From the IMG/VR virus record IMGVR_UViG_3300010885_054974, positions 1 through 64,000 of that record: DNA of 64,000 nt; one strand, given 5' to 3'. This DNA comes from a virus. Below the pieces are notes generated by a model. That model was given only the letters and a program-made list of their open reading frames with translations. It was not told the origin of the DNA and searched no databases. Both the position numbers and the translations under genes were made by a program. Shown here piece by piece: positions 4,333-26,091 of the stretch (its first letter is position 1; each line of letters starts with the position of its first letter).

Positions 4333-4505
4333 ATTGTACCCCATTTAATTCGAAGCCATATTCTTTCCATTGCATATTGTACTATGGCCAATACAACATG
4401 TATTGCTACCGCATCACTTAGACCTGTCCATACAGCAGTTATTAGCAAAGCAGTAATCCTATACGCAACTGTTCTTGCCAGGGTTCTTGCGTGTGTCTCT
4501 ATCAT
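4329..4505 (-). CDS. DUF2061-like small membrane protein (58 aa)
   Basis: The ATG at 4505 overlaps the TGA of the carbamoyltransferase gene in an ATGA, and its own TGA overlaps the next ATG in the same way. The 58-residue product has the DUF2061 architecture: an N-terminal THARTLARTVAYRITA segment, hydrophobic stretches at about 17-27 and 33-43, then ERIWLRIKWG at the end, the usual aromatic/basic close of that family. It is more divergent than the copy at 3167-3334. The function of DUF2061 is unknown; a membrane partner for the neighbouring sulfur or sugar enzymes is inference. Confidence 0.7.
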   Translation of the reverse strand: MIETHARTLARTVAYRITALLITAVWTGLSDAVAIHVVLAIVQYAMERIWLRIKWGTI

Positions 4506-5989
4506 GATACTACTTGTACTCCATAAAGTTGTTCAAAACGGTCAGCATCGGCACGATCGTTGACCATTGGTTCTCCCCTGATGTTAAGACTTGTGTTTAA
4601 CAACATGGGACAGTCTGTCATCACATACCATTTTTCCAGGAGTTCTCGTATTCCGCTTCCGTCTCGTGGCACAGTTTGTACACGACTAGTGCCATCATGA
4701 TGAATGATAGCAGGGAATAGGTCAGGTACCCTGCAACGAGCGATTGTTTGCATATACCTACTACGGTCCCAGCCCCTAGGCATATCAAAGTAAGTATCAG
4801 CCAACTCCTCCAGAATAACTGGCGCAAAGGGTCTGAACTTTTGTCTGCGTTTAATTTCATTTACTTGATCCTTTATTTCTTTTCCTCGGGGGTCTGCAAG
4901 GAGGCTTCGGTTGCCCAACGCTCGCGGGCCGAACTCGGCACGACCGCTTGCCACACCCACAATACGATCACGGAGAAGAGCATCCAGGGCACCATTAACA
5001 GGATAAGGCCCAGGAATAAGGTGACCCAGAAAAGCATTGTTCCAATTAATGCGACGGCCCCAAACAAGGCCTGCGGCACCAAGGCTACTGCCGCTATCGC
5101 CAGGGCAAGGCATAATCCAAATGTTTTCAAAGTAGTTTCCTATTCTAGAATTGGCCGCGCAGTTGAGTGCCACGCCGCCCATATAAACCAAATTGTCACT
5201 CCACCCAAACTTCTTTGCACGAGTCATAACATTTAGTATCAGTTGCTCTGCTAGTTCTTGTGCCCCGGCTGCAATATCCATATCGCTGGTGCCGGGCATA
5301 AAATCCGCATCGAGTCCTATGTGTAGATTTTCTCGAAATCGTATGTCGTATTCGTGCGCTATCAACCGATCTTGCATTACAGCGGCATGACGCCTGTCAC
5401 CGTAGGCTGCCATGCCCATCAAGATGTATTCTTCGTCTAGTGGGCGTAGGCCAACGCGGCCAGTCGCTCCAGAATAAAAGAGTCCGATGCTATGCGGGTA
5501 ACTCTGTCTCCACAATTTCGTATAATGCGCTTTACCATGTTTATCATATTCAGCCCCCCATATACTTATGGTATCCCATTCACCTATAGCGTCAATTACC
5601 ACCACAGTAGCCCGATCAAAAGTACTGGTTTGAAACCCTGCCGCCGCATGACTTAGGTGATGATTATAATTCTTGTAGTATTTAACATCCTGCCAATTGG
5701 CATGTCCAATTTGATCGTGTATGTTTTTCTTCACACTGAGTCTGTTCCACTCGATGCCTTGACCGCTGTACCATTGACGCAACTGTTTCATCACTGGGCG
5801 TTCATAATATGCCACTGTGTCGATTGGGTTGTAATTTTCTAATTCTTCGATCAGTGGTGTGCAGAAGTTTTTGTCATTCTTGCGTTTACTATACCGCTCG
5901 CTATGGCCAGCAAATAGTATATCGCCATGACGATCAATTACTGTTGCGGCTGCATCATGAAATCCAGCCGAGATGCCTAATATGTTCAT
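4502..5989 (-). CDS. NodU/CmcH-family carbamoyltransferase
   Basis: 495 residues. The start MNILGISAGFHDAAATV is the ASKHA-type first motif of the NodU/CmcH/TobZ carbamoyltransferases. The metal-binding histidines appear in NHHLSHAA (H110, H111, H114), followed by the VVVIDAIGEWDT strand, PGDSGSSLGAA and the C-terminal GRAEFGPRALGNRS with a downstream FRPFAP. These enzymes use carbamoyl phosphate and ATP to carbamoylate a hydroxyl on a sugar or antibiotic. The length is slightly short for cellular members (often 550-600), but all major motifs are present. It overlaps the upstream SGNH-like gene by 35 bases and is coupled downstream through ATGA. The acceptor is probably a glycan, judging from the neighbouring glycosyltransferases (inference). 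Confidence 0.9.
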   Translation of the reverse strand: MNILGISAGFHDAAATVIDRHGDILFAGHSERYSKRKNDKNFCTPLIEELENYNPIDTVAYYERPVMKQLRQWYSGQGIEWNRLSVKKNIHDQIGHANWQDVKYYKNYNHHLSHAAAGFQTSTFDRATVVVIDAIGEWDTISIWGAEYDKHGKAHYTKLWRQSYPHSIGLFYSGATGRVGLRPLDEEYILMGMAAYGDRRHAAVMQDRLIAHEYDIRFRENLHIGLDADFMPGTSDMDIAAGAQELAEQLILNVMTRAKKFGWSDNLVYMGGVALNCAANSRIGNYFENIWIMPCPGDSGSSLGAAGLVWGRRINWNNAFLGHLIPGPYPVNGALDALLRDRIVGVASGRAEFGPRALGNRSLLADPRGKEIKDQVNEIKRRQKFRPFAPVILEELADTYFDMPRGWDRSRYMQTIARCRVPDLFPAIIHHDGTSRVQTVPRDGSGIRELLEKWYVMTDCPMLLNTSLNIRGEPMVNDRADADRFEQLYGVQVVS

Positions 5990-8268: not shown

Positions 8269-8480
8269 GGCCATTTAAGTGCCCAGAACATGGCTTTTGC
8301 AGGATCTGGAATTTCCCAATAATGGTTATGCCCACTGTATACAACTGCACCAAAATCATTTTTTATTGTCACAGGTTCGCTTACATGAATAAAATCAGTA
8401 CCAATCTCTCCAATATTGTCTTTGGTCCATTGTTGCCATTCAGTTTGTTTATCATAAGGAATTGTGTGTTCTAATTTCAT
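8265..8480 (-). CDS. Unrecognised small protein (71 aa)
   Basis: The ATG at 8480 overlaps the TGA of the radical SAM gene (ATGA), and the stop at 8265 overlaps the next ATG in the same way, so the gene is translationally coupled on both sides; an upstream ATG at 8495 would add five residues. The product begins MKLEHTIPYDKQTEWQQW and contains a GHNHYWEIPDP segment. No transmembrane segment or known domain is visible. It could be a partner of the adjacent radical SAM enzyme, but there is no recognisable RiPP recognition fold or cysteine-rich core peptide. Confidence 0.65.
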   Translation of the reverse strand: MKLEHTIPYDKQTEWQQWTKDNIGEIGTDFIHVSEPVTIKNDFGAVVYSGHNHYWEIPDPAKAMFWALKWP

Positions 8481-9772
8481 ATCGACATCCACCATTTGAG
8501 TACATCAGGACGGGCACTGAGTATGTCAGTCATTGTCACACTCTGTGTTCTGATCTGCTCTAATTTTAACACACGAGCCTTGCCACGAGCAACTGCTTCG
8601 GCATATTCTTTTGGCCATTGTTCTGCAAAAGTGGGTCTAGTTTTTAGCTGGACAAGTATATCCCGCAAGGCGCCGCCAGAATGTTGCATCTGGTTGGTAA
8701 TCTCATCTACCCAAGGATGTAGTATTTCCCTGGGTAGTGCAAGGGGTGACATAACTATGTCCGGACTAAAACTAAAAATTACTTTGGCAAGGACTTCGAC
8801 TCCGAATCGCTGTGCAAGTTGTTCAATGCGTGTAATTTCGAACATTCCGGGCAAAGTGAGCGTGAAGTCAATTCTGACTTGACGATTGTTACGTCTGATC
8901 TCAACTGCCTTACTGAAATTTTCAAGCCACCGAGGATAGCTAAGACCAGTTCTAATGTACTCGCCAATCTGTTCCGTGCCATCAAGGCTTGCACATATCT
9001 GCCAATCGCGAATCCTACTGAGAATATCCCTATACAGATTGATACCTTTGTAATCAACTCTAGATAAGTTGGTGTTATAACGAGCGTAAACATTGTGACC
9101 ATCTCCTAATTCTATTATACGGGTCATGTATCTCCAATGTTGCTCGTACATCAGGGGCTCGCCACCAACCCAATATACTTCCTCAACACGGTGTTCCTCG
9201 ACAGCTTTTTCAAATTCCCATTCTATCTGTCGTTGCTGAAAACCTTCTATGTCTTTCTTAATCTCGGGTCGCATCCAGTTGTTCTTTGGATTAGCCCAAT
9301 CGATCATGCCGTGTTGCCGTTGCTCAGTTTCCCAAGCACTGGACAGCATGTCTCCGCACATACGGCATTTAAAGTTGCACAGGTTGCTAAATCTGTAATC
9401 CCACGATACCGGAAGCATGGTTGTACTGCCGTCCTCGGCGGTATTTTCCATGGCTTCGTTGTACTTATGTTCAAACAGCTGATTGAAATAGCTACGGTAA
9501 ACAGAAGTATTCAACAGTCTATCATTGCATACTTCGCACTCAGGCAGTGTTTCCCCGGCCATCATGCGTTTTCGCACACTCCGCATATGGTCACTATTCC
9601 AATGTTCATCTAGCGTGATAGGGATATAACGCCCAGTGCCAGCCTCGGTATCAATGTACTGTTGAAAGTTCTGTGCAGGCTCGCGACTTGCACAGCACAT
9701 TCTGCGTTCAGTTTGCGGGCTTAGATATGTGTGCGTCCAGGGCGCCATGCATAAGGTATCAGGTTTTGTCAT
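8477..9772 (-). CDS. Twitch-domain radical SAM protein
   Basis: 431 residues from the ATG at 9772 (a 13-codon upstream extension to 9811 is less likely because it lies within the previous gene). An N-terminal auxiliary-cluster segment has C-MAPW at about 8 and a CC pair near 25, the pattern of twitch/SPASM proteins. Then comes the radical SAM motif CNFKCRMC (C132, C136, C139), which binds the 4Fe-4S cluster that cleaves S-adenosylmethionine. A GGEPLMYE segment follows as the SAM-contacting GGE motif. The substrate is unknown. It overlaps its neighbours at both ends and belongs to a run of four such genes. Confidence 0.88.
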   Translation of the reverse strand: MTKPDTLCMAPWTHTYLSPQTERRMCCASREPAQNFQQYIDTEAGTGRYIPITLDEHWNSDHMRSVRKRMMAGETLPECEVCNDRLLNTSVYRSYFNQLFEHKYNEAMENTAEDGSTTMLPVSWDYRFSNLCNFKCRMCGDMLSSAWETEQRQHGMIDWANPKNNWMRPEIKKDIEGFQQRQIEWEFEKAVEEHRVEEVYWVGGEPLMYEQHWRYMTRIIELGDGHNVYARYNTNLSRVDYKGINLYRDILSRIRDWQICASLDGTEQIGEYIRTGLSYPRWLENFSKAVEIRRNNRQVRIDFTLTLPGMFEITRIEQLAQRFGVEVLAKVIFSFSPDIVMSPLALPREILHPWVDEITNQMQHSGGALRDILVQLKTRPTFAEQWPKEYAEAVARGKARVLKLEQIRTQSVTMTDILSARPDVLKWWMSI

Positions 9773-12284
9773 AGCCCATTGCACGAGCAATATCAGTGTG
9801 TGTACGAGCAAAGTCTTCGCCTCGATAACGATCCGTGCGTTGCATTTCTTTCAAAAACTGTGCGTTATCCCGTGTTTCGCCGTTTTTAATAAACTGTATA
9901 ATACGATCTATTTCCTTGCGATGGCGTGGAATAAAGTCACCGTCGGTTAGTCGGTCAATTACCAATGCTTTTGCTTCTTCAGTCATTGAACCAATGTTCA
10001 TGTGCTTGGGGTCATGCATCATGTTGAAATAATCGTAGTCAAAGTTTTGTAGGATTACCCACTTACATAGGTCTTCCAAGTACAACACATTCTGCACATT
10101 GATGGTCATGCATACCTGTGTGCGTAATCGGGGCCACGCCTGTTTCATAGCATGGAAGCGTTGAATGTTGGCTTCTACTTCGGTCCATCGAGCACCCGAC
10201 CGTTCAAATTCAAAACGCTCACCCACATTATCAATACTGAATGCAATTTCCACCTTGCGGAACTGTTTCCATGTATCAATGAATTCTTCTGGGAAATGTG
10301 TACCATTGGTATTGTAATGAATTTCGATGTTGTCAGCATAACCGTTGTCTGCGGCAAACTTCAACAGGTCAAAGTGTTCTTGAATCATAAACGGTTCGCC
10401 GCCGGTGAATTCAAAGTATTTGACATGTGGCAGTATGGTTTTCAAGTCCTCCCAAAAGCGCGGACTATTTTCGTTGCGTGGCCAGTTGCCTTGCTTGAGC
10501 CATGTGTAGGCAATATGTTTCTTAGGGTCGCCGCCCCAGTCTTTGACATATTCCATTTCTTCCGGCACCCATTTGCTACTTGACCACGAGCCACAGATGC
10601 GGCATTTCAAATTGCAGATGTTGCCCAGCTTCAGGTCCAAGAACCATAACTGATTGGGTTTATCATTCTCCCAATCTACTTCTGCATAGCGTTCTTTGAA
10701 TCGGGTTAATGTGTGTAGTCGCTTGCTGGTACGACCTGCATCTTCTTCTTCCCAACAACGAGTACAAGTGGCGGGCTTTTTACCCTCGCGGAAACTTTTG
10801 CGTAGATCCTGCATATATTTGCTGTTGTAAATTTCCGTCACAGTATGCCGGTTCATGTCATACTTTTCGCCCGACTCATCCACAATCTCATCTGTGGCCA
10901 AACAGCAGGGGCGGGCCGATCCAACAGGACTGGTTTCAATGCTGACCCAAGGCAACATGCACATGGTCTGTGGCAACTTGTAGTTTTTCATTTCCACCAA
11001 CTCAGGGAAAGTTTCAAAGAAGTTTTCTTCGCGCACCTTGTCAATGAGTTCGTTAACTTTGAAAAAGTCCGGCAAGTAGGCTGTGCTGTCATTGTGTTCC
11101 ATGAAGTTCAACACACCTTTGTAGCCACTTGTGGCACGAGTCAAGGTATCTAGGGGTTCCAACCATTCCAAATGTTCTTCAATGCGGTCACGAGCACGAC
11201 GCTTCAGATTGGGTGGTAGTGCATCTACACGATATCGCAAGGGGTGTTGCAACATGTTGATGTTCCAATCCATTGGACGCAATAAGCCCAAGTCAACCCA
11301 TTCGCGATGGAAGTCCGGAATGTGTATCACATTCATCAGACTCACTGTTGAGCTCACATAGAAGTCTACATTGGGACATACCTTCAACATGCGCTCACGG
11401 TTCTCTACTGTTTGACGCCAGTCCTGTCCCTTACGCATGTATTCACCACGATGGTAACTGGCATCCAAGCTGGCGCCCACACTTACACAGTCAAACAGTT
11501 TCCAAAGTTCCATTACATCTTGGTCTTTGAATTTCATTTCCGAGAAGTTAGTATTGTATATCAGGCGCACATGAAACATTTCACGGTCAACCAGTTCGCG
11601 TAGCACACGATAGTGTTCTTCCATGATTAGAGGTTCGCCACCGGCCCAGTAGATTTGTTCAAGATGCGGAATATGCTCTTGCATTTGATTCCACATGTCT
11701 TCTTTGTTCTTGCCCGCAAACATGATCTGTGGATGTTGTGGATTCCAGCCAGCGGCTTTTTCATCACGATACCAACTTGAACTAAACAGGCTACCGCAAC
11801 TACGGCAACTGAAGTTACAGATGTTTGAAAAGCGCACATCATAGTAGCGCAGTTTGAAATCATTAAGACTACCGTCGGCATTGGTTTCATCCACCAGATT
11901 GATCAGGTGCCCAAAGTTTTTGTTTGAGCTGTTACGCATACTGAACAACTCACTGCGTTCTTGCTCCACGCACTTGGTACATTCTTTGCAGGGTTTGTCC
12001 TGCATCATGTTCAAACGCATTTGTTTCAATGGATCTTGATTCCAAATCTCTTTCATGGTGTGCGTTTTAAGATTGCCCACTGAATGATCAGGGTCACCCA
12101 AACAGCAGGGATATGCACGACCATCAGGAAAGGCATGCATATGGATCCACGGAATCATACAGAAGTTATCGGTCTTGATCAAACGGTCCCATTGGTCAGG
12201 ACGCATTTCTTCTTGTTTCATGTACACCGGCATACGGGCACCGTAGTTGTAATTTTCGTAATAGTTGTCTAGTTTGTCAGTCAT
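9759..12284 (-). CDS. Tandem double twitch/radical SAM protein
   Basis: About 841 residues from the ATG at 12284, which overlaps the stop of the previous gene in an ATGA (a start at 12299 is also open). The protein contains two complete units in line. Unit 1 has CMIPW (from C42), a CC pair near 60, CKECTKC near 99-105 and radical SAM CNFSCRSC (C156, C160, C163) with AGGEPL. Unit 2 has CMLPW, a CC pair, CTRC and CNLKCRIC (C557, C561, C564) with TGGEPF. Both halves therefore keep the cluster ligands and should bind SAM independently. The fusion looks like an internal duplication followed by divergence. Substrates are unknown. Confidence 0.88.
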   Translation of the reverse strand: MTDKLDNYYENYNYGARMPVYMKQEEMRPDQWDRLIKTDNFCMIPWIHMHAFPDGRAYPCCLGDPDHSVGNLKTHTMKEIWNQDPLKQMRLNMMQDKPCKECTKCVEQERSELFSMRNSSNKNFGHLINLVDETNADGSLNDFKLRYYDVRFSNICNFSCRSCGSLFSSSWYRDEKAAGWNPQHPQIMFAGKNKEDMWNQMQEHIPHLEQIYWAGGEPLIMEEHYRVLRELVDREMFHVRLIYNTNFSEMKFKDQDVMELWKLFDCVSVGASLDASYHRGEYMRKGQDWRQTVENRERMLKVCPNVDFYVSSTVSLMNVIHIPDFHREWVDLGLLRPMDWNINMLQHPLRYRVDALPPNLKRRARDRIEEHLEWLEPLDTLTRATSGYKGVLNFMEHNDSTAYLPDFFKVNELIDKVREENFFETFPELVEMKNYKLPQTMCMLPWVSIETSPVGSARPCCLATDEIVDESGEKYDMNRHTVTEIYNSKYMQDLRKSFREGKKPATCTRCWEEEDAGRTSKRLHTLTRFKERYAEVDWENDKPNQLWFLDLKLGNICNLKCRICGSWSSSKWVPEEMEYVKDWGGDPKKHIAYTWLKQGNWPRNENSPRFWEDLKTILPHVKYFEFTGGEPFMIQEHFDLLKFAADNGYADNIEIHYNTNGTHFPEEFIDTWKQFRKVEIAFSIDNVGERFEFERSGARWTEVEANIQRFHAMKQAWPRLRTQVCMTINVQNVLYLEDLCKWVILQNFDYDYFNMMHDPKHMNIGSMTEEAKALVIDRLTDGDFIPRHRKEIDRIIQFIKNGETRDNAQFLKEMQRTDRYRGEDFARTHTDIARAMGYDKT

Positions 12285-13642
12285 AGTGTGTTGTACCAAT
12301 CTGCTAGTGCAGGGAATGTTTCTGCAAAGTTTTTGTTTCGACGCTGGTCGTACTGTGTGTAGAAGTTTTTAAAGTCACGCTGTAGTGTGATCTGTTCCAT
12401 TGCTTCTGTATGCGGTTTCAATACCACATCAATGTAGTCAAGTAATCTGTCAAGTTGGTTCTTTTCAAATTCGTGCATCAAGTCAAATCTATGCCAGTCG
12501 TTGGCAAATCGATATAATTTGCCAGCATATTGCTGTCTAATGTCGTTTGGGAAAATTGTAAGTGATTGAAAACTTGGAAAGCGTAATATATTTAGCGAGA
12601 AGTTGATGGAGTCCCGACCGTATTGCAATTTCCAGTTCATAACCATGTCCAAGAAGCTGTCTAAACTATCTAAACACAATGCGTTAACGGTACACATAAC
12701 ATGCAGGCCACGGAACCGGCCCGAATCCAGCAAGCGTTCCACATTGTTGGCCCAATCGTCAAATACCAGTCCATCGCGAATATATTCGGCCTGTAGGCCC
12801 ACGGCCTCGTTACTGGTATACAAGTCAACTTCAACACCGTCAACGGCCGCTAGTAAACGGTCAATGTCAACCGCGGTGCCCAAGTTGCTGTTGATGGCAA
12901 GTCGGGTAGTACTCTTGCCCTTGTTGGTTTTAAACCAATCAATTAACTTCCAAGTCTCTGCCGACATTAGTGGCTCGCCTCCAGTGATGCGTAGTTCCTT
13001 TAAGGTTCTGTGGAGGTCCGACTCCCACCAGGCGTGGAATGCTTCCACATAAGGATTAGTCTCACCGAACTTATACAGTTGACTACTATCGTGAGCGTGA
13101 GTAAAATGGTTCCTACCGTCACTAACCAAGTTGGTGTAGGGTCCATGTTGCTTAATGTCTTTAACCCAAGTGCTACTAAAAGCGGGGTTGCAGTAAGAAC
13201 AAGCAAACTGGCAAGTGCGATCAAATGCAATTTCCAATGTTTGAAGATCGAAATCTTCACTGGCAGGTGTTCTGTGTGCATGGGCCAAATCCTCATCTGA
13301 ATAAATTACTGTTTTGTATACACGATCACTTATAGCGGCGGGAAAAGGATCTGTATGCATGTCTTCAATCTTCCAACAATATTCGCACCCTGCAGGGCGT
13401 TCACCCTTTTGCATTTGTTCACGCTCCATTTTTTTCTTTTGCGTGTTGTGAATTGCCTTGGGATTGATTCGAATTGCATCTAGGTCAATGGCGTGTGGCA
13501 GAGGATGATGACAACTTGTGGTCTGTCCCGATCCTAACCATATGGTGGCATTGTACCATTTGGCTCCACAGAAGCTGGCTGACTTGATGTCAATTACCCT
13601 GTGTTTGTATTCAAAATCTGTTTCGTTAGCTATTTTGGGCAT
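12281..13642 (-). CDS. Radical SAM protein with N-terminal Cys-rich segment
   Basis: 453 residues. The radical SAM motif is CQFACSYC (C144, C148, C151), followed by RITGGEPLM as the GGE motif. Before it lie C25 (FCGAKW), C44 (SCHH) and a CEYC at 86-89, a variant of the twitch-type auxiliary-cluster segment in which the usual CC pair is replaced by C-H-H. The ending FAETFPALADWYN resembles that of the next gene (FEETFPQMTEFW), showing the two are related. It overlaps the following double radical SAM gene by ATGA. Substrate unknown. Confidence 0.87.
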   Translation of the reverse strand: MPKIANETDFEYKHRVIDIKSASFCGAKWYNATIWLGSGQTTSCHHPLPHAIDLDAIRINPKAIHNTQKKKMEREQMQKGERPAGCEYCWKIEDMHTDPFPAAISDRVYKTVIYSDEDLAHAHRTPASEDFDLQTLEIAFDRTCQFACSYCNPAFSSTWVKDIKQHGPYTNLVSDGRNHFTHAHDSSQLYKFGETNPYVEAFHAWWESDLHRTLKELRITGGEPLMSAETWKLIDWFKTNKGKSTTRLAINSNLGTAVDIDRLLAAVDGVEVDLYTSNEAVGLQAEYIRDGLVFDDWANNVERLLDSGRFRGLHVMCTVNALCLDSLDSFLDMVMNWKLQYGRDSINFSLNILRFPSFQSLTIFPNDIRQQYAGKLYRFANDWHRFDLMHEFEKNQLDRLLDYIDVVLKPHTEAMEQITLQRDFKNFYTQYDQRRNKNFAETFPALADWYNTL

Positions 13643-15011
13643 GATATCTACATTCTTTCCAAAATTCCGTCATCTGCGGAAATGTTTCTTCAAAATTGGT
13701 ATGTCGACGCTTGTCGTGTTCATTGAAGAAACGATAAAAGTCTGCTCGTTGCATTTTAACATAATCGGCGTCCAGACTGCGACCTTCCTCCATCCAGGCT
13801 ATGTCACGACGCATACGCTGTACTTCGTAGTCTTTGAATCCTTGGAATGGCTGTTCCGACCGTTCTAGATTCAACTCCATCCAATCGGCCACACGCTCCA
13901 ATTGGCGCACATACACAGCCGGTAGTATTTGTAAACTCTGCCATCGAGGTGTGCGTAGCAATGGTGTGTCGAACCACACACGCTGATATGTTGTGCTATG
14001 GTTCTTACGCAACCGTAGTATCCAGTCCAATTGTTGCTGTAGGCCCAACACACTGAGATTATTCATAGTAATAATAAATGTCAAGCTGTTACGATATGGA
14101 ATTTCTCTCAAGAACATGTTGACATTTTCAACCACACGATTGTAGTTTAATCCGTGTCTGATGTATTCGGCATGAGCATAGTTGCCCGAGTCTAGACTAA
14201 CATACTGCATGAAGTGTTCAATTTGTGTGTTACACAACTGCTTGACATAGCCAAGATATTTGTCCATCAAGGCATCTTCTACGCTGAAGTTGCTGGTAAC
14301 ATCTAAGTGCAGTTCTGGATTGGGCATGGCCAACACATAGTCGAATACTTTGTATGTGTTACGATCCATCAAGGGCTCGCCACCGGTCATTCTAAAGTGT
14401 TTTAGTTTGGGGTACAGCTCGGGCCACCATTCCCAAAATGCATCTACATAAGGGTTGGGCTGGGAATGTGGTATAGGACGGCGGCTACCAACAAAGTGAG
14501 CAGGATCATTATGAACAACACTAGTAGGATATCCCCCAAACTTATCAACTTCTGCTTGCCACGAACTACTAAACTGGGGGCTACAATAACTACACTTAAG
14601 ATTACAAGCATGATTGAAATTGACTTCCACATAACTAGGAACAACATCTTCTTCTCCTGAGGAATTTCGTATAGCATCAAAATGTTCTACAGCCCACTTC
14701 TCGCCTGATCGATAGTGTCTATCACTGAGTTGATCGTGCTTTTCTATGTTCCAGCAGTAACTACACTCAGCGGGTTTTTCGTTACGGATCATGATCTTCC
14801 GCTGTTCTTTTTTGTAAGCGGTGTTGTGTAGTGCGCCGGGATTTGCTTTTAATGGCTCAACATCTATGTGATGCAGAGGCGGGTGGTAACAACTGTTGTT
14901 GAGACCTGTGGGCAAGTGTAGGCTAACCTGTTGCCACTTGGCAAGGCAAAGTGCAGGGCCTAATTGTTCTCGCATCTGCTCGGCCGCAGACATGAAGTCA
15001 CTTTTACTCAC
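13626..15011 (-). CDS. Radical SAM protein with N-terminal Cys-rich segment
   Basis: 461 residues from a GTG at 15011 that overlaps the end of the upstream gene. The motif CNLKCSYC (C136, C140, C143) is followed by RMTGGEPLMD. Upstream cysteines C22 (LCLAKW), C41 (SCYHP) and the CSYC at 83-86 match the arrangement in the 12281-13642 gene. Shared blocks such as ALHNT, the Glu-Lys-Pro before the CxxC and the HACNLKCSYC region show these two genes are paralogues. The first gene of the four in transcription order. Substrate unknown; the N-terminal cysteines probably carry an additional Fe-S cluster (inference). Confidence 0.87.
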   Translation of the reverse strand: MSKSDFMSAAEQMREQLGPALCLAKWQQVSLHLPTGLNNSCYHPPLHHIDVEPLKANPGALHNTAYKKEQRKIMIRNEKPAECSYCWNIEKHDQLSDRHYRSGEKWAVEHFDAIRNSSGEEDVVPSYVEVNFNHACNLKCSYCSPQFSSSWQAEVDKFGGYPTSVVHNDPAHFVGSRRPIPHSQPNPYVDAFWEWWPELYPKLKHFRMTGGEPLMDRNTYKVFDYVLAMPNPELHLDVTSNFSVEDALMDKYLGYVKQLCNTQIEHFMQYVSLDSGNYAHAEYIRHGLNYNRVVENVNMFLREIPYRNSLTFIITMNNLSVLGLQQQLDWILRLRKNHSTTYQRVWFDTPLLRTPRWQSLQILPAVYVRQLERVADWMELNLERSEQPFQGFKDYEVQRMRRDIAWMEEGRSLDADYVKMQRADFYRFFNEHDKRRHTNFEETFPQMTEFWKECRYHAQNS

Positions 15012-19143: not shown

Positions 19144-20664
19144 TTACGAATTTAGTTTTACTGTAGCTTCAATTATACCCTCACCGGCAGTAGTTTTGCT
19201 AGTCAATGCTCGCCCAATTACATTCCACGGGGAAATTTCGGTTCTTGCGCCTGCTCTGGCCAATCCATTGCCTGCGCTTACTAATCTGTCACCCTTTTTA
19301 ATTGGGCCAATAACTCGAACGGGAACCCGTCCACTTACCGCAACTGGTGGGTGTGTACTATCTGATCCAGCACCGCTGTTCATCAAATAGGCTGCCTTAG
19401 TACTTATGACACCAAGGATGTTTTCACTTAATTCTGACACCACAGCAGTGATTTCTTTGGCTCCGCCCAATTCAACCACAGTACCTGGACTGATCACTGC
19501 ATCAGCTTCAAAGCGTTCTGCAACGTCCGCGTACTGTGCATGAATTGATGTACCATAAATGTTGTTCCACCAAGCAGTTGTGCTACCCAAATTGTATGTT
19601 AGATTGGCTGTTGGTACCAGGTTGGCACCGAAAGTTGTGTTGCCACCTGACCCGCCTAGTCCTAGGCCAGTGATCGAATCGTCAACATATTTCTTGGTTG
19701 CCACACTGGTTGTAGAACCCAATGCTGTGTTGGCTGTGATTTTAACTGTGCCGTCTCCGCCCAAGGTCAATAATCTTGTTGGAGTTCCGCTAACGTTTGC
19801 AAAGAAATCCAAATTGTGCCCTGTTACTGCACTAGAAATCCTTGCGGCACCAGATACCACAGATACAGTAACATCGCCGGCGGCACCCACTGTGAGTCCG
19901 CTGTCGCTGGAAATAGTTTGTGCCGCAGAAAATGGTGTTGTGCCCGACAATCTAGCAAATACTGATGCAGAAGATCCGCCCAATTTATCTGCATTGTTGG
20001 CATTGCCCCAATAGCGCAGTCCAACCAATGTTCCGCCAATGGTATCGTCGGCCAGGTTCATACCAGGGTTAATGGTGTTGAATCCACTGGATGTCAGCAA
20101 CGGACTTGGTGTAAAAGCAGTATCTGTGCTCAAAATCGCTGCCAATTTGTTGTTGATCAAGAACTTGACAATAACATGTGTGGCTGTACCGTCGCTTAAA
20201 ATATCTGCAATGGCACCCGACTGACCTGTGGTGGCTGTAAATGCAGGTCCAATCACTGTCCAACCAGCATCGCCCACACCACCGTTGTTGACTTTTAGCT
20301 GTGCATTGGCACTGTCCCACCAAAGATCACCTGTTGCAGATGTGTCGTAGGCCGAGTCCGGTCTAGTGGCACTGGAAGTAGCACCACTGATACGCTTCCA
20401 ACCCACCTCTGAACCCATGTAAACTTTAAGAACCTTGTTGGCAGCATCGTTTTTGTCCCACCAAAGTTGCCCCTCTTGTGGGTGCTGTGGCGCTGTGCCG
20501 CTGGCAAAGTTTTCTAACAACTGTATGAAGTTTTCGTTGAGAAATTGTCCGTAGCCAGGAAAGTTTTTGCCCACTAGGGTCAGGCTGGTAGTGGTGGAGT
20601 TTGATGTACCCGGTTCAATCGATGCCAGGGTTGTGCCATCTGAATTTGTTATTGTATATGCCAT
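19144..20664 (-). CDS. Tail fibre, N-terminal attachment domain plus YADVAE-type C-terminal domain
   Basis: 506 residues. The N-terminus (MAYTITNSDGTTLASIEPG, then LVGKNFPGYGQFLNENF, QLLENFA and GQLWW) is shared with the genes at 20706 and 24183 and is likely the part that docks on the baseplate or a shared fibre. The middle is beta-rich. The C-terminus begins YADVAERFEADAVISPG, continues GVISTKAAYLMNS, then VSGRVPVRVIGPIKKGD. It resembles the Peptidase_G2-like/intramolecular chaperone region at the end of many phage fibres, and a second copy ends the gene at 26115. A late-promoter box lies 27 bases upstream. Confidence 0.75.
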   Translation of the reverse strand: MAYTITNSDGTTLASIEPGTSNSTTTSLTLVGKNFPGYGQFLNENFIQLLENFASGTAPQHPQEGQLWWDKNDAANKVLKVYMGSEVGWKRISGATSSATRPDSAYDTSATGDLWWDSANAQLKVNNGGVGDAGWTVIGPAFTATTGQSGAIADILSDGTATHVIVKFLINNKLAAILSTDTAFTPSPLLTSSGFNTINPGMNLADDTIGGTLVGLRYWGNANNADKLGGSSASVFARLSGTTPFSAAQTISSDSGLTVGAAGDVTVSVVSGAARISSAVTGHNLDFFANVSGTPTRLLTLGGDGTVKITANTALGSTTSVATKKYVDDSITGLGLGGSGGNTTFGANLVPTANLTYNLGSTTAWWNNIYGTSIHAQYADVAERFEADAVISPGTVVELGGAKEITAVVSELSENILGVISTKAAYLMNSGAGSDSTHPPVAVSGRVPVRVIGPIKKGDRLVSAGNGLARAGARTEISPWNVIGRALTSKTTAGEGIIEATVKLNS

Positions 20665-20705: not shown

Positions 20706-21839
20706 TTACTGATATTGGAACCAGAAATCTCCGTCAGCACCTTGTGTATTATCCGGAGCCAATGCGCTGATATATCTACGACTTCCTTGCCATGTTGTGT
20801 TAGTACCAGTAATGGCCTGCGATACAAATGTTGTTGTGGCAAGTTTTGTGCTGACATCACCAAAAGTTGGGGTTGGGGCTGTGGGCGTGCCTGTAAATAC
20901 CGGGCTTGCCAGGTTGGCTTTAAATGCCAAGTTATTGTTGGTTGCAATGGTCACAGACGCAACATTACCAGCTATTGCAGTATCAATATAGCCACGCTGT
21001 GTATCATCCTGTGACATCACATAGTCTGTGGTTGCTATTTGTGTGGTTCTTGTTCCTGCGGCCGCAGTGGGGGCGGCAGGTGTGCCTGTAAATGTTGGGT
21101 TTGCAATATTTGCTCGCAGACCAATGGCTGTGGTTGTGGATGATGTCAATGCCCCTATATTGGCCAACAGATTGGTATCTATGTAGGATCTGCGTAGATC
21201 ATCTTGTGCCATCACATAGGCCGTAGTTGCTATAGATGTGGAGTTGTCAGCCACAGTGGCAGTGGGTGCTCTGGGATTCCCAGTCAGCACCGGGCTATAG
21301 GTAGTTGCTCTAAGGGCTATGGCGGCATTGGCTGCTGTGACGTTGGCATCTAAGCTGTCTAGTCGTTGGCTCTGAACGCCAGCATTGGCAGTCAATGTTG
21401 CAATTGAACTGTTCTGTACTGCGGCGTTGGCCCATAAATTGGTAATCTGTGTGTCTTGTGCCGCGGCATTGGCATTTAGTACAGCAACATTGGCCAGTAT
21501 TCTGGTATTGATAACATCAATGTTGGCCTGTATTTGCGTGTTTATTGACCCAATTGTGTTGGCCAATACTTCAGCGTTGGCCAGTGCAGTATAAGAGGAT
21601 CCTGTGTAAACACTGATGGCTCGTGTACCGGTATTGTACCATAGCTGTCCTGCAACTGGATTTGCTGGTCCACCGGTGCTGGCAAAGTTTTCCAATAAAA
21701 ACAGTTGGTTTTCATTCAAGTACTCTCCGTAGCCAACAAAATTCCTACCAGCCAAGCTCAATGTTGTACTGGTGTTCAAGGTTCCGTCGGTAATATTGGC
21801 TAATATGGTTCCGTTGTAATGATTTATTGTGTATGCCAT
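20706..21839 (-). CDS. Tail fibre with shared N-terminal attachment domain and repeats
   Basis: 377 residues. Residues 1-75 repeat the shared N-terminus (TTLSLAGRNFVGYGEYLNEN, LLENFAS, GQLWY). A heptad-like segment follows, full of NANAAAQ and ANTIGS steps (about 85-180), probably a trimeric coiled coil. Three copies of a repeat of the form SP-(F/L)TG-PRAPT...TTS-IATT-YV cover residues 185-355. TG.P.APT...T..IATT.YV repeats are widespread in phage fibres. The ending GADGDFWFQYQ matches the end of the 24183 gene (GNPGDIWYQTF). Confidence 0.75.
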   Translation of the reverse strand: MAYTINHYNGTILANITDGTLNTSTTLSLAGRNFVGYGEYLNENQLFLLENFASTGGPANPVAGQLWYNTGTRAISVYTGSSYTALANAEVLANTIGSINTQIQANIDVINTRILANVAVLNANAAAQDTQITNLWANAAVQNSSIATLTANAGVQSQRLDSLDANVTAANAAIALRATTYSPVLTGNPRAPTATVADNSTSIATTAYVMAQDDLRRSYIDTNLLANIGALTSSTTTAIGLRANIANPTFTGTPAAPTAAAGTRTTQIATTDYVMSQDDTQRGYIDTAIAGNVASVTIATNNNLAFKANLASPVFTGTPTAPTPTFGDVSTKLATTTFVSQAITGTNTTWQGSRRYISALAPDNTQGADGDFWFQYQ

Positions 21840-21844
21840 TGTTT

Positions 21845-22801
21845 TTATCCAAAATTGTTTCTGCTAAATGTAGTGGTTATAGAACTGGGAGTACCGACGC
21901 TGTCCATACGTTTCCATTCGCCTTGGCGTTTTACCCAGGCGCTTTGAATTGTTTTCCAAACCCCATCTACTTTAACTGCTAATGTATTTACCGGTTTCCA
22001 TGCTCCGCTGACCTTTACACGGCCTGCGCCGCCACTGGTAAACACCAGTACTGCTTGTCCCGGAGATCCCCCGGATCCTGCCCCAATTCCGCCCTGTGCT
22101 ATGCCACCTGTCCAATAGGCACTACTGGATCCGCCGGCGCCGCTGCCGTCGGCACCCACTGCCCCTGAGCTGGAGCTACCTGCACTGCCTGCAAGTCCGC
22201 CATATGCATTATCGTATCCCGGGCTGCCTCCAGCACCACTACCACCTCCACCTCCGCCACCTCCGCCACCATCACCGGGACAGTCACCACCTGTGGAATT
22301 TCCATTGGTAACGGTGGTAGGATTACTGGCGGAGTAGGCTCCGCGGTTATTTGAACCTCCGCCACCTCCGCCACCTCCGGCGGCAAAATAGGCTGTTGTT
22401 CCATTGACCAGCAACAAGGTGGCTCCTCCGCCCCCGCCTCCGCCACCCGACCAACCCGAAGGTCCTGCATTTCCGCCACGGCCACCATTTAGATATTTTC
22501 CGTCGACTGACGCTGTGTATCCTGCGCCAGCTGAACCGCCACCTCCGCCGGAACTGCTACTGCCACCTCCGCCGGGTCCACCAACTGCAACCAATACTGT
22601 GTCGCCTGAATTAAGAGTAACGGTGTTGTTATAGTACCAACCGCCGCCGCCCGAACCTGCAGGGCCATTGCCATCTTCGCCGCCGGCTCCTCCGCCAGCC
22701 CCCCAAAGGTAAACATCAACTTCGGGTTTAAAGCCGCCAGGTACAGTAAATGACTCTGTGCCACCGTTGTATACAAATCGTTTAACTAGTTGGTTAGCCA
22801 T
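21845..22801 (-). CDS. Polyglycine adhesin (gp38-like composition)
   Basis: 318 residues from the ATG at 22801 (MANQLVKRF), one base after the stop of the sedolisin gene; an upstream start inside that gene is unlikely. After a short beta domain ending VYLWGAGGGAGG, the protein is dominated by glycine/serine runs (about residues 35-245), resembling the polyglycine sandwich of T4-like gp38 receptor-binding adhesins. The C-terminus has a repeated VKVSGAWKP / VKVDGVWKT / VKRQGEWKR unit. Receptor binding at the fibre tip is a reasonable inference. The coding DNA is a low-complexity CCG/CCA/CCT array. Confidence 0.7.
   Translation of the reverse strand: MANQLVKRFVYNGGTESFTVPGGFKPEVDVYLWGAGGGAGGEDGNGPAGSGGGGWYYNNTVTLNSGDTVLVAVGGPGGGGSSSSGGGGGSAGAGYTASVDGKYLNGGRGGNAGPSGWSGGGGGGGGATLLLVNGTTAYFAAGGGGGGGGSNNRGAYSASNPTTVTNGNSTGGDCPGDGGGGGGGGGGSGAGGSPGYDNAYGGLAGSAGSSSSGAVGADGSGAGGSSSAYWTGGIAQGGIGAGSGGSPGQAVLVFTSGGAGRVKVSGAWKPVNTLAVKVDGVWKTIQSAWVKRQGEWKRMDSVGTPSSITTTFSRNNFG
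22235..22450 (-). repeat. Low-complexity glycine-codon array
   Basis: On the plus strand, the interval repeats units such as CCACCTCCGCCACCTCCG (clearest at 22242-22270, 22355-22380 and 22425-22450). All are in frame with glycine codons of the adhesin, so gain or loss of 9-base units would keep the reading frame. Confidence 0.6.
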
Positions 22802-22802
22802 G

Positions 22803-24179
22803 TTAGAATACCTGTCTCCAGTCGCCTGTGTCGTAATCTTTGTTCCAGATTGCTCGAACATTTGCCCAAGTTGTTGCGCTTGTTTTTACTCGCACATTAG
22901 ATACATAACTCCAAGTATTTGCATCTGTTTTAATAGTTGTCCCACCAGAACTTACCATTTGATAGACTACATTGCCCCACGGCACCCCAACGCCTGTTAC
23001 AGGATCCCAATTTGAGCTTGCGGCGTATCCGTTTAGATATGTTGTTGTAGCATTATTGCCTGTTGTTATATCATAATACGCATTTAAGTTTCCGTATAGT
23101 ACAGGATGTATAGCATTAGGTATAGGTCTGCGTCCGCCAGTTAATGACATAAATCTAGCCAACATTCCTGCCATGATAGGTGTTGCGGCACTGGTGCCAC
23201 CATATCCAGTCGGAGTGTTAAACCACATAGCATAAGCATTCATCGGCCCAGCAATATCGGGGATTCCTCGAGTAGTTAATGTAATAGGAGAACTAGCAGT
23301 TAAATTAGATACAAAATAGCGTTTGTATGTTAATCCAGATTGCCAACTTGGTACAGGAATAGTTGTGCTTATTCCGCCGCCGCTACCCCACCCCATTTCT
23401 GTAAACAAAGGATCTCTATTTTCAACTATTTCCGATACTCGAACATTGCCAGCACCTAACGTTAAATTAGTTCCGCCGACAGCAATAACATTTGAACTTG
23501 TTGCTGGATAAGAAACACTAACTATATTTGCATTGGCGTACCATTCACTGCCGTAGTCGCCAGATGCGACTAGAACGCTGATACCTTTTGCGGCAGCATT
23601 TGCTAAAGGGGCCGCAAGCCAGTCTCCAAAATAATAAGTTGTTCCGCTACTGATAAATGATTCTGGATATGCCCAACTAATAGAAATAATATCACAGTTT
23701 TCATTTACAGCACGATTAATAAGATTACCAAATCCTGTTGTTAAATTCTGCGATGGGGTCACTAACGGATTAGTAGTTCCGTAATTAGGCCCAGACTGTG
23801 TTCCAATATATATAACAATATTAGCTTTAGGTGCTATGCCGGCTACACAGTATAAGTCAAGGGTATTCTCGCCGTCAGCATCGCTAACTCCAAATGTACC
23901 CGATGCACCGTCTACCAGCACTGTAGTAATGTTAGCACTAGTAACCAGTGAATTTAGCCCCATATCACGCATAGAATTATTAAAATCTGTTGCGTTCCAA
24001 CCGCCTCCCAAACTAATAATTCCAATTTTAACGTTAGAACCAGTAGAAGGTGGCATGTTGTATGCTGTTGCTATCTGTGTAGGAGTTAACAACCCGAGTT
24101 GATTAATATTAGTCGCAGATGGGAAACTTCCCATTGGGATAGAAAATGAATTTGAGCTAACGTTGCTAGTAGCTATCAT
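22803..24179 (-). CDS. Sedolisin-type (S53) serine-carboxyl peptidase in the tail-fibre locus
   Basis: 458 residues. The start of the mature domain is visible (GLLTPTQIATAYNMP, from 29). The S53 active site is complete: Glu104 and Asp108 in the DGENTLDLY helix (E-x3-D), Asp208 in ASGDYG as the oxyanion Asp, and Ser330 in GYGGTSAATP. RGIPDIAG (305-312) and WDPVTGVGVP (391-400) are further family blocks, the latter near the calcium site. The usual large N-terminal prodomain is absent, and there is no signal peptide. The C-terminal 50 residues form a VKT--TTWANVRAIW repeat like the end of the adhesin next door, suggesting virion attachment. Codons look richer in A/T (TTA, ATA) than in the flanking fibres. 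Confidence 0.88.
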   Translation of the reverse strand: MIATSNVSSNSFSIPMGSFPSATNINQLGLLTPTQIATAYNMPPSTGSNVKIGIISLGGGWNATDFNNSMRDMGLNSLVTSANITTVLVDGASGTFGVSDADGENTLDLYCVAGIAPKANIVIYIGTQSGPNYGTTNPLVTPSQNLTTGFGNLINRAVNENCDIISISWAYPESFISSGTTYYFGDWLAAPLANAAAKGISVLVASGDYGSEWYANANIVSVSYPATSSNVIAVGGTNLTLGAGNVRVSEIVENRDPLFTEMGWGSGGGISTTIPVPSWQSGLTYKRYFVSNLTASSPITLTTRGIPDIAGPMNAYAMWFNTPTGYGGTSAATPIMAGMLARFMSLTGGRRPIPNAIHPVLYGNLNAYYDITTGNNATTTYLNGYAASSNWDPVTGVGVPWGNVVYQMVSSGGTTIKTDANTWSYVSNVRVKTSATTWANVRAIWNKDYDTGDWRQVF

Positions 24180-24182
24180 ATA

Positions 24183-25400
24183 TTAAAATGTCTGATACCA
24201 AATATCACCCGGGTTGCCTTGATACTGTGTCGGAGCCACCGAACTTACATAGACATTACGAGCAATATTAGAAGTCATTGCAATGTTACCATTGGAATAC
24301 ACATTCTGTGTTGCAATAATGTTGGCAGTGGTTGACACATTGCTGGCCAGGGCTCGCAGGTTGGCGGCCAATATAACATTGGAATACGAACTGGTACCAA
24401 AAGTTGTGTTGGCATAGGTTTGGAATGCTTGAAGATTGGTCTGCAAAGTGGTTGCGCCAGCTGTCACTGCGGTAATTCTATTAGAAACCACCAAGTTGCC
24501 AGCATCTACATAATTCTTCATTGCGGTATTGGCATCAGTGACACTATACTCTACGCTGCCTATCCTGGTGTTGATGCCTGTGATCACCGTGCTGGTTGGC
24601 AAGTATGCGGCCACCGAGGTGTTGCCGTAATTGCTAGTACCATAATTGGCATTGGCCCAAGTGTAGAATGATCCAACATTGGCGGCCAAGGTGTTGATTA
24701 CTGAATTGGTTCCAGTTATTCTAGTGGATTGTGCAGTATTAAGATCTGCAACATATATCTGCATGGCAATGTTGGCAGCAGTGATGGCCGCATTGGCCGC
24801 CAACACATTGGCATTGATACCAGTAATGACCGGAGATACCGTTAAATAACTAGCTGTATCAGTATTTGAATAATTACTAGTTCCGTAGTGTGTATTGGCC
24901 CAGGTGTAGAATGAGCCAATGTTGGCTTCTATATCGCCAATGGCCAAATTTGCCGCAGTGATCTGCGACAACTGTATGGCGTTGTTGGCATCCACATACA
25001 GTCGCATTGCTGTGTTGGCCGCCGTGACCAAGCCTGTGACTGCTATCACATTGGCTGTGAGACCCGAGTACAAGGCGGCCACATTGGATGCCAATCGTGT
25101 TTCAAGTTGTCCCACCGTGACTGTGGAAGTTCCTGCGCTGGCCAATTGATTAAAGGCTGTGCCATCGTAGTATTTCAAAGTGGCTGTGCTGGTGTCATAC
25201 CACAATTGACCAGTTAATGGGTACAGCGGAGCAGTATCACTGGCTTGATTCTCCAACAGCCAAACAAAATTTTCATTTTGAACTGTACCATAGTTGATGT
25301 AATTCTTACCTACCAGGTTCAGGCCAGTACTGGTATCTAGTGTACCGTCCAATAAAGTCAGTAGTTGTAGTCCGTTACTTTTGTATATGGTATAGCTCAT
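24183..25400 (-). CDS. Tail fibre with shared N-terminal domain and long repeats
   Basis: 405 residues. The N-terminus (TGLNLVGKNYINYG, NENFVWLLENQAS, GQLWYD) is the shared attachment domain. The body contains at least three copies of an approximately 75-residue repeat made of an alanine-rich helix (AANTAMRLYVDANNA type) followed by IGSFYTWAN--YGTSNYSNT--A-YL. The helices are probably trimeric coiled coil. The ending GNPGDIWYQTF matches the 20706 gene. It is four bases upstream of the sedolisin gene in the same transcript. Confidence 0.75.
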   Translation of the reverse strand: MSYTIYKSNGLQLLTLLDGTLDTSTGLNLVGKNYINYGTVQNENFVWLLENQASDTAPLYPLTGQLWYDTSTATLKYYDGTAFNQLASAGTSTVTVGQLETRLASNVAALYSGLTANVIAVTGLVTAANTAMRLYVDANNAIQLSQITAANLAIGDIEANIGSFYTWANTHYGTSNYSNTDTASYLTVSPVITGINANVLAANAAITAANIAMQIYVADLNTAQSTRITGTNSVINTLAANVGSFYTWANANYGTSNYGNTSVAAYLPTSTVITGINTRIGSVEYSVTDANTAMKNYVDAGNLVVSNRITAVTAGATTLQTNLQAFQTYANTTFGTSSYSNVILAANLRALASNVSTTANIIATQNVYSNGNIAMTSNIARNVYVSSVAPTQYQGNPGDIWYQTF

Positions 25401-25407
25401 TGTTGTA

Positions 25408-26091
25408 TTATCCTAGTGAACTCAAGTTGGTTAGAGTTTGAATTCGCACAGTATAATCGATTTGAATCAGTCTGTTCAGACTCTTTTGTACAGGATGGAA
25501 AACCACATGGGTCAACAACAAGCCTGTGGTGGTTAGACCTTCGCTGCCATCAAGGCTACGAGCTTTTAGTCCCAATTCGTCAAACACATAGTCACCGTTC
25601 AGGCTTTGACTGTTGTCAAAGGCCGCTTGGTCAGCTGGCTCACCGTAGTCCAGCAAACAAGTAACCAAGATGTCGGTATAGATGTTGCCTGGTGTGTGTA
25701 GCACTGTGATCTTGTTTCTAGCAGGGTCTGTGTTCTTGACGCTGGTATTGTCCACAATCTTGAAATATGTGGGATTGTACAAGTTGCTGTTCTGTGCGTT
25801 AGTGTTGGCTGGCAAATAACTGATAACGCCAGTGGGGTCAACGGCTGTACCACCGTTGCCAAAGTGCATTTCGTAAATGAAACTCTGAGCTTTGTTTCCC
25901 AAGTTCTGAGCTAACGCTACAGAAATGTTTTCGTAGTGTATAGCATTGCGTTTGTTGATGAAAACTTCGCCGGACTCGGGGTCATGGATCTTGATATGAC
26001 CTTGTACATGAATTCCGCCGGTTTCATCGGGTTTGCGTTCGGGCTTTTGAGTTTGCATTTGTTGTTTATCCTGCTGTTTATCTTGTTCCAT
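25408..26091 (-). CDS. T4-like virion structural protein
   Basis: 227 residues. After a hydrophilic Gln/Lys-rich head comes HVQGHIKIHDPESGEVFINKRNAIHYENIS and then IYEMHFGNGG, a signature I recognise from a structural protein conserved in aquatic T4-like phages, found between the baseplate and fibre genes. The body is beta-rich and probably lies in the baseplate or fibre-attachment region. The start is ambiguous: the first ATG (26091) lies only 5 bases from a GATAAATA late-promoter box (26103-26096), so initiation at the internal ATG at 26058, preceded by AGGA, is also plausible. Confidence 0.75.
   Translation of the reverse strand: MEQDKQQDKQQMQTQKPERKPDETGGIHVQGHIKIHDPESGEVFINKRNAIHYENISVALAQNLGNKAQSFIYEMHFGNGGTAVDPTGVISYLPANTNAQNSNLYNPTYFKIVDNTSVKNTDPARNKITVLHTPGNIYTDILVTCLLDYGEPADQAAFDNSQSLNGDYVFDELGLKARSLDGSEGLTTTGLLLTHVVFHPVQKSLNRLIQIDYTVRIQTLTNLSSLG

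Follow-up and report, generated by a model that had tools for sequence, protein, structure and literature searches.

The gene at 22806-24179 (minus strand, stop codon 22803-22805) of the 64,000-nucleotide stretch of viral DNA analysed here, hereafter the window, encodes a kumamolisin-type S53 peptidase of 458 residues that lacks a prodomain and follows directly on a tail-fibre gene. Dozens of related uncultured viruses carry an S53 gene in the same place, coupled to a fibre gene, and the form that combines this coupling with the lack of a prodomain is a variant that is new relative to the known S53 enzymes.

Fold and active site of the window peptidase

We firmly assign the catalytic unit of the window protein to family S53. 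A phmmer search aligned residues 31-407 with kumamolisin (E 1.1e-33) and VIA-align placed residues 29-411 on kumamolisin-As, bounding a mature catalytic domain of residues ~30-410 (22950-24092, minus strand). An AlphaFold2 model, computed from an input alignment of 42 phage and cellular sequences, reached a pTM of 0.82, with the core mostly at pLDDT >85-90 and low values for the first 25 and last ~45 residues; superposition on kumamolisin-As D164N gave Z 47.1 and an rmsd of 1.9 Å over 334 residues. Because phmmer, alignment and superposition agree, the preliminary description of this DNA was correct, far above chance, in recognizing an S53 peptidase at 22803-24179, and the overlay on kumamolisin that it had suggested bore it out. 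Ranked by structural similarity to the model, kumamolisins (Z 45-47) were followed by sedolisin (43) and tripeptidyl-peptidase 1 (32), which share the S53 fold and catalytic residues but are more distant, and by subtilisins at ~27 at most. Tripeptidyl-peptidase 1 is a lysosomal exopeptidase with a prosegment. The structure search also returned S53 proteins of the giant viruses Homavirus and Barrevirus (28-33% identity), which have the S53 fold but are longer, belong to viruses of eukaryotes and stand outside any phage fibre context.

The Pfam search that had likewise been suggested gave a match to PF00082 (E 3.7e-14), but there is no separate S53 model in Pfam, and this match is accounted for by the fold common to S53 and S8. 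The window protein lacks the S8 Asp-His-Ser triad, with Glu and Asp in place of His/Asp, and S53 structures rank far above those of S8; it is not assigned to the subtilase family S8.

The four catalytic residues named in the preliminary description, Glu104 (codon 23868-23870), Asp108 (23856-23858), Asp208 (23556-23558) and Ser330 (23190-23192; all minus strand), align with kumamolisin E78, D82, the oxyanion residue D164 and the nucleophile S278, respectively. Each is invariant in 69/69 phage homologues, none of which lacks the Ser/Glu pair, a loss that had been named as an argument against the assignment; the tetrad (Ser-Glu-Asp plus oxyanion Asp) is also common to all 74 cellular rows of the alignment. 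Judged from superposition and alignment, the four residues should converge in the folded protein. Window W169 aligns with kumamolisin W129, and D370 and D392 correspond to the calcium-site positions D316 and D338 of kumamolisin, which are kept in most phage rows of the alignment; a calcium site is predicted for the window protein. Kumamolisin and kumamolisin-As (Alicyclobacillus, Bacillus; MEROPS S53) are thus like the window enzyme in the tetrad, the W129 position, the DIT..GNN..WD calcium-site blocks and the fold, but kumamolisin possesses a prodomain and Glu32, both missing from the window enzyme, which instead extends into a C-terminal repeat tail and is paired with a fibre protein. The window protein would be expected to act as an acid endopeptidase.

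The phage S53 clade and the loss of the prodomain

After removal of duplicates and fragments, four IMG/VR scans yielded 69 comparable phage S53 sequences, all from uncultured viral contigs, which measure up to 354 kb. Each of 12 large S53 contigs tested holds exactly one S53 gene, and seven of the 12 hold a T4 portal gene. Three queries found no S53 match in 50,697 isolate phage records, the window protein had no PHROG match, and a search of open-access literature found no paper on phage S53 peptidases. In quick trees, computed without bootstrap and with cellular sequences taken from genome contigs, all phage S53 form one clade apart from cellular S53 (SH-aLRT 99-100). As the searches began from the window protein and kumamolisin, they may have missed phage S53 unrelated to these. 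A bacterial host as the recent donor is rejected: no cellular S53 compared exceeds ~34% identity, and all of them lie outside the phage clade. In nine pairs of phage S53, dN/dS is 0.06-0.23, which indicates purifying selection and hence that the protein is used. The source sample was identified, from a paper, for one record only (3300000553, Trout Bog hypolimnion, a humic lake), so a link with acid habitats is just a hint.

In accordance with the preliminary description, the window enzyme starts at the mature domain (from residue ~30): the prodomain Pro-kuma_activ (PF09286) was found neither in the protein nor anywhere in the 65.8 kb record from which the window is taken. Phage S53 come in two kinds, with the catalytic domain beginning either at residue ~25-66 or after ~150-190 residues. 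Pro-kuma_activ scored above the Pfam cut-off in all eight long forms scanned, and at the level of whole records PF09286 occurred in 8/8 prodomain-bearing records tested versus 0/19 prodomain-less ones. The latter include contigs of 156, 143, 120 and 108 kb, which speaks against a prodomain supplied in trans; contigs are fragments, so this rejection is not final. The 37 short forms make up one nested clade in the rooted tree (support 100), and the remaining 32 sequences keep the long N-terminus. For this reason a single loss of the prodomain, within phages and along with the replacements E32 to S/A and V79 to N, is probable; several independent losses are rejected, since the larger tree requires one change only. 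The simplest history compatible with the sequences would be that a phage lineage once took up a pro-enzyme of kumamolisin type and later, in one event, lost the prodomain.

The prodomain-bearing phage enzymes (L021, L022, L025, L030, L147 and others, all uncultured) resemble the window enzyme in belonging to the same clade, lying behind a fibre gene and having an intact tetrad, but differ in Pro-kuma_activ, in a mostly retained Glu at the E32 position and in their P-type tails (see below). Three further prodomain-bearing phage S53 (L029, L143, L163) are 860-1551 residues long, with extra C-terminal domains and no fibre gene before them; that of L029 has a Cadherin-like C-terminal domain and an insertion within the S53 domain.

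Ser56 of the window protein (codon 24012-24014, minus strand) occupies the kumamolisin E32 position, which is Ser/Ala in 37/37 short phage forms, Glu in 28/32 long phage forms and Glu in 12/13 kumamolisin-type cellular rows, the exception, Ala, being an engineered kumamolisin mutant (PDB 1t1g). The next position after the catalytic Glu, V79 in kumamolisin, is Asn in all 37 short forms, and Val in 31 of the 32 long forms and in 13/13 cellular kumamolisin-type rows. Glu32 and Asp82 of kumamolisin are in contact at 2.7 Å (PMC11593635). At this position sedolisin carries Thr (PMC11593635); the replacement of E32 is therefore no sign of a dead enzyme. The short forms may differ from the long ones in pH profile or zymogen control, and the change of E32 to Ser/Ala across the prodomain-less clade could lower or shift activity. 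The prosegment of cellular relatives both helps folding and inhibits the enzyme (PMC6278154); as these relatives fold via the prosegment, a prodomain-less protein might be unable to fold alone. That cellular sedolisins need a prodomain, as had been claimed, is the literature view for the studied forms, but core-only S53 paralogues are mentioned for one fungus (PMC6278154).

Fibre coupling, genome context and exchange between phages

To judge from its gene content, the record covers part of the genome of a jumbo phage of T4 type, a relative of Agrobacterium phage Atu_ph07. Among its genes are a portal and baseplate genes of T4 type and one for a virion protein of 4523 aa; the isolate phages nearest to it are Rak2/Atu_ph07-like jumbo phages, with 36% identity for the baseplate wedge. 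Common to Atu_ph07 and the record is the order baseplate wedge, giant virion protein, phrog_11259 protein, fibre and radical-SAM genes, in which the conserved jumbo-phage protein phrog_11259 (25408-26091, minus strand) serves as a synteny anchor to Atu_ph07, L005, L011 and L014. Where Atu_ph07 has a single fibre gene, the window has a fibre, the S53 gene, a glycine-rich protein and two more fibres, one with PHROG tail-fibre matches (20706-21839) and one with a Peptidase_G2 (IMC autocleavage) domain (19144-20664; both minus strand). Virion proteins of Atu_ph07 detected by mass spectrometry are mostly encoded by CDS 31-76, 170-215 and 284-329 (PMC6102473), and the RefSeq numbering matches that of the paper (gp215 is the major head protein); by synteny and analogy, the window region corresponds to the cluster CDS 170-215. 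The S53 gene lies in a virion and tail-fibre module that is conserved across phages, and by analogy its product may be part of the virion.

A comparable setting exists in Atu_ph07 itself, in which gp329, a subtilisin-fold peptidase, adjoins tail-fibre genes at the end of the virion cluster CDS 284-329. This protein is, however, S8-type (PF00082 1e-38, GTSMAAP block) and not S53, measures 1251 aa and lies at another genome position. It corresponds to L125 7635-11390 (NC_042013.1 257634-261389), and the phage enzyme is apparently uncharacterised. Elsewhere in the window, the virion module contains a series of radical-SAM genes (8477-15011), one of 846 aa with two radical-SAM stretches and SPASM; radical-SAM genes stand beside fibre genes in Atu_ph07 too and possibly serve peptide or fibre modification. 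A carbamoyltransferase with N- and C-terminal domains (4502-5989; 1.7e-46) is perhaps involved in surface or nucleotide modification.

The tail-fibre protein upstream of S53 (24183-25400, minus strand) ends in GDIWYQTF, its stop codon preceding the start of S53 by 3 nt, and is the conserved S53 partner; the placement in a tail-fibre operon made in the preliminary description therefore holds, and the pairing recurs in many phages. In nearly all loci S53 lies directly behind the fibre gene (mostly -1 to +3 nt), even where the neighbourhood is otherwise unlike that of the window. The C-terminal tail of the window S53 (22806-22949, minus strand; low-confidence in the monomer model) is of a W type, with three K..W..V repeats and the end W-R-Q-V-F. 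Across the family there are two tail types, W (K..W..V repeats, mostly ending W.QTF) and P (RP..G..FPR repeats), and two fibre C-terminus types, GDIWYQTF-like and TLTLLQLE-like. All 57 classifiable pairs matched, 19/19 W-type tails going with GDIW fibres, among them two variant fibre ends (GDIWI; L177, L181) assigned by hand, and 38/38 P-type tails with TLTLL fibres, across both prodomain kinds; in the rows outside the 57, tail or fibre end could not be classified, and the fibre ends of the P-tailed L148 and L149 belong to neither of the two types. Each label needs just two changes on the tree, so the many sightings reflect few events, and many independent co-switches of tail and fibre are rejected. 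Cellular kumamolisin terminates before the tail region in the alignment, and HMMs of both tail types convincingly matched S53 proteins alone in these contigs, which rejects a tail motif shared with other phage proteins there. The tail is a putative fibre or virion attachment device.

The weakest part of the preliminary description was the likeness of this tail to that of the adjacent adhesin, the glycine-rich adhesin-like protein that starts 1 nt past the S53 stop (21845-22801, minus strand). Its similar W-K repeat tail is in the same register (K...W..V, three times; shuffle p ~0.002), but the HMM of S53 tails does not recover this protein.

The codon usage of the window S53 differs sharply from that of its surroundings. 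Its GC3 of 0.288 is the strongest outlier of the window (0.37-0.51 elsewhere; z 8.5) and lies 0.148 below the genome module (0.436), whereas across 47 phage loci the mean difference between S53 and genome is -0.036; most phage S53 are close to their own genome, so low GC3 is rejected as a family trait. The nearest relative, on contig L002 of an otherwise unrelated phage, shares 91% of its amino acids and fits the GC3 of that contig (0.303); the S53 of the syntenic phage L005 is 66% identical to that of the window. Window and L002 are 88% identical in DNA from 30 nt upstream of the start codon to ~78 nt before the stop, and nothing in the flanks aligns beyond the S53 stretch. By this evidence the window S53 is a module exchanged between phages, with its edges in the fibre end and the tail; the donor would be another phage, host origin not being visible. 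The AT-rich codons, taken in the preliminary description for a sign of recent acquisition, do mark a foreign gene, but a dS of 0.56 between the window and L002 copies indicates that the exchange is not very recent, and the source is another phage. Contig L002 also carries at 15698-19390 genes for CsgF (8.9e-12), CsgG (7.2e-40), and curlin-repeat and FecR-domain proteins (the same genes in L003 at 9342-13034). Curli secretion would be unusual on a jumbo-phage contig, and this cassette is possibly misassembled or misclassified bacterial DNA.

Possible roles of a fibre-coupled peptidase

The conserved pairing with a fibre gene, tails specific to the phage enzymes, an unvarying tetrad, modular exchange and the precedent of gp329 lead us to propose that the protein could be a fibre-borne kumamolisin-type acid endopeptidase in the distal part of the tail fibre that cuts host surface proteins, a reading whose chances of being right or wrong we regard as evenly balanced. 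We infer its virion location, folding route, activity, pH dependence and substrate as follows. The peptidase would be translated directly behind its fibre partner, would fold without a cis prodomain and would be attached via its C-terminal repeat tail, matched to the type of the fibre C-terminus. Carried on the infecting particle, it would work best at low pH and cleave a protein of the host surface, be it the receptor itself, S-layer, pili or a protein-rich matrix, and would so open a route to the cell or make binding irreversible; the enzyme would be the proteolytic counterpart of a polysaccharide depolymerase. A more far-reaching version, speculative and more likely wrong than right, assigns to the T4-type jumbo phages that live in acidic or humic waters their own class of fibre-borne sedolisins without a prodomain, a class of proteolytic tail enzymes so far undescribed. 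In it, folding aid or restraint would come from the fibre partner or from virion assembly in place of the prodomain, the enzyme would be activated by the low pH of the environment, and phages would pass the fibre-protease pair among themselves as a module for host interaction.

The strict pairing with one fibre gene and the matched C-terminal types would also suit a morphogenetic protease whose substrate during assembly is the upstream fibre or some other protein of the virion, for example in maturation of the fibre C-terminus, and which would not have to act on the host. Fibre processing predicts the same gene order, fibre proteins of the same cluster bear Peptidase_G2 autocleavage domains, and jumbo phages use several virion-processing peptidases (PMC7824862). 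Nevertheless, we consider this role unlikely: S53 enzymes are acid proteases (PMC6278154), ill-suited to a cytoplasm of neutral pH; the fibres end in conserved caps that are intact, past which the reading frame shows no obvious domain to cleave off; and the syntenic region of Atu_ph07 is built without S53. An enzyme carried on or shed from the particle could instead destroy receptors or matrix on debris and neighbouring cells, and so prevent progeny from rebinding after lysis. Fibre linkage and catalytic evidence favour such release to the same degree as entry, and the sequence does not separate the two, but no signal peptide or separate expression is seen, and we hold release to be distinctly unlikely.

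The loss of the prodomain and the replacement of E32 and V79 beside the catalytic acids throughout the short clade might reflect a dead or very weak enzyme whose S53 fold is kept mainly as a fibre binding module, that is, an adhesin. A module that only binds would be expected to lose some catalytic residues, yet none of the four varies in 37/37 prodomain-less members, deeply diverged as these are, which makes this option very doubtful. Cellular S53 are pre-pro-enzymes made for export. An accessory enzyme of this host type, merely co-transcribed with late genes and devoid of a virion role, is at odds with the missing prodomain, with the lack of an evident export signal in the window protein, and with phage-specific tails and a fibre coupling that are conserved over 69 homologues, and we regard it as very unlikely.

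The phage tail enzymes known to open a way to the host mostly hydrolyse polysaccharide or peptidoglycan. The S53 catalytic unit described here is a variant of a known family without the prosegment usual in cellular members, and it is the prodomain-free, fibre-coupled phage form that is new. It would offer a natural experiment on a zymogen-type protease that does without its prodomain, with one loss, two active-site changes and prodomain-bearing sister phages as controls, and such enzymes could, through their activity and specificity, find use as tools. A widespread and conserved fibre-coupled protease would add protein barriers to the targets that are cut at phage entry.
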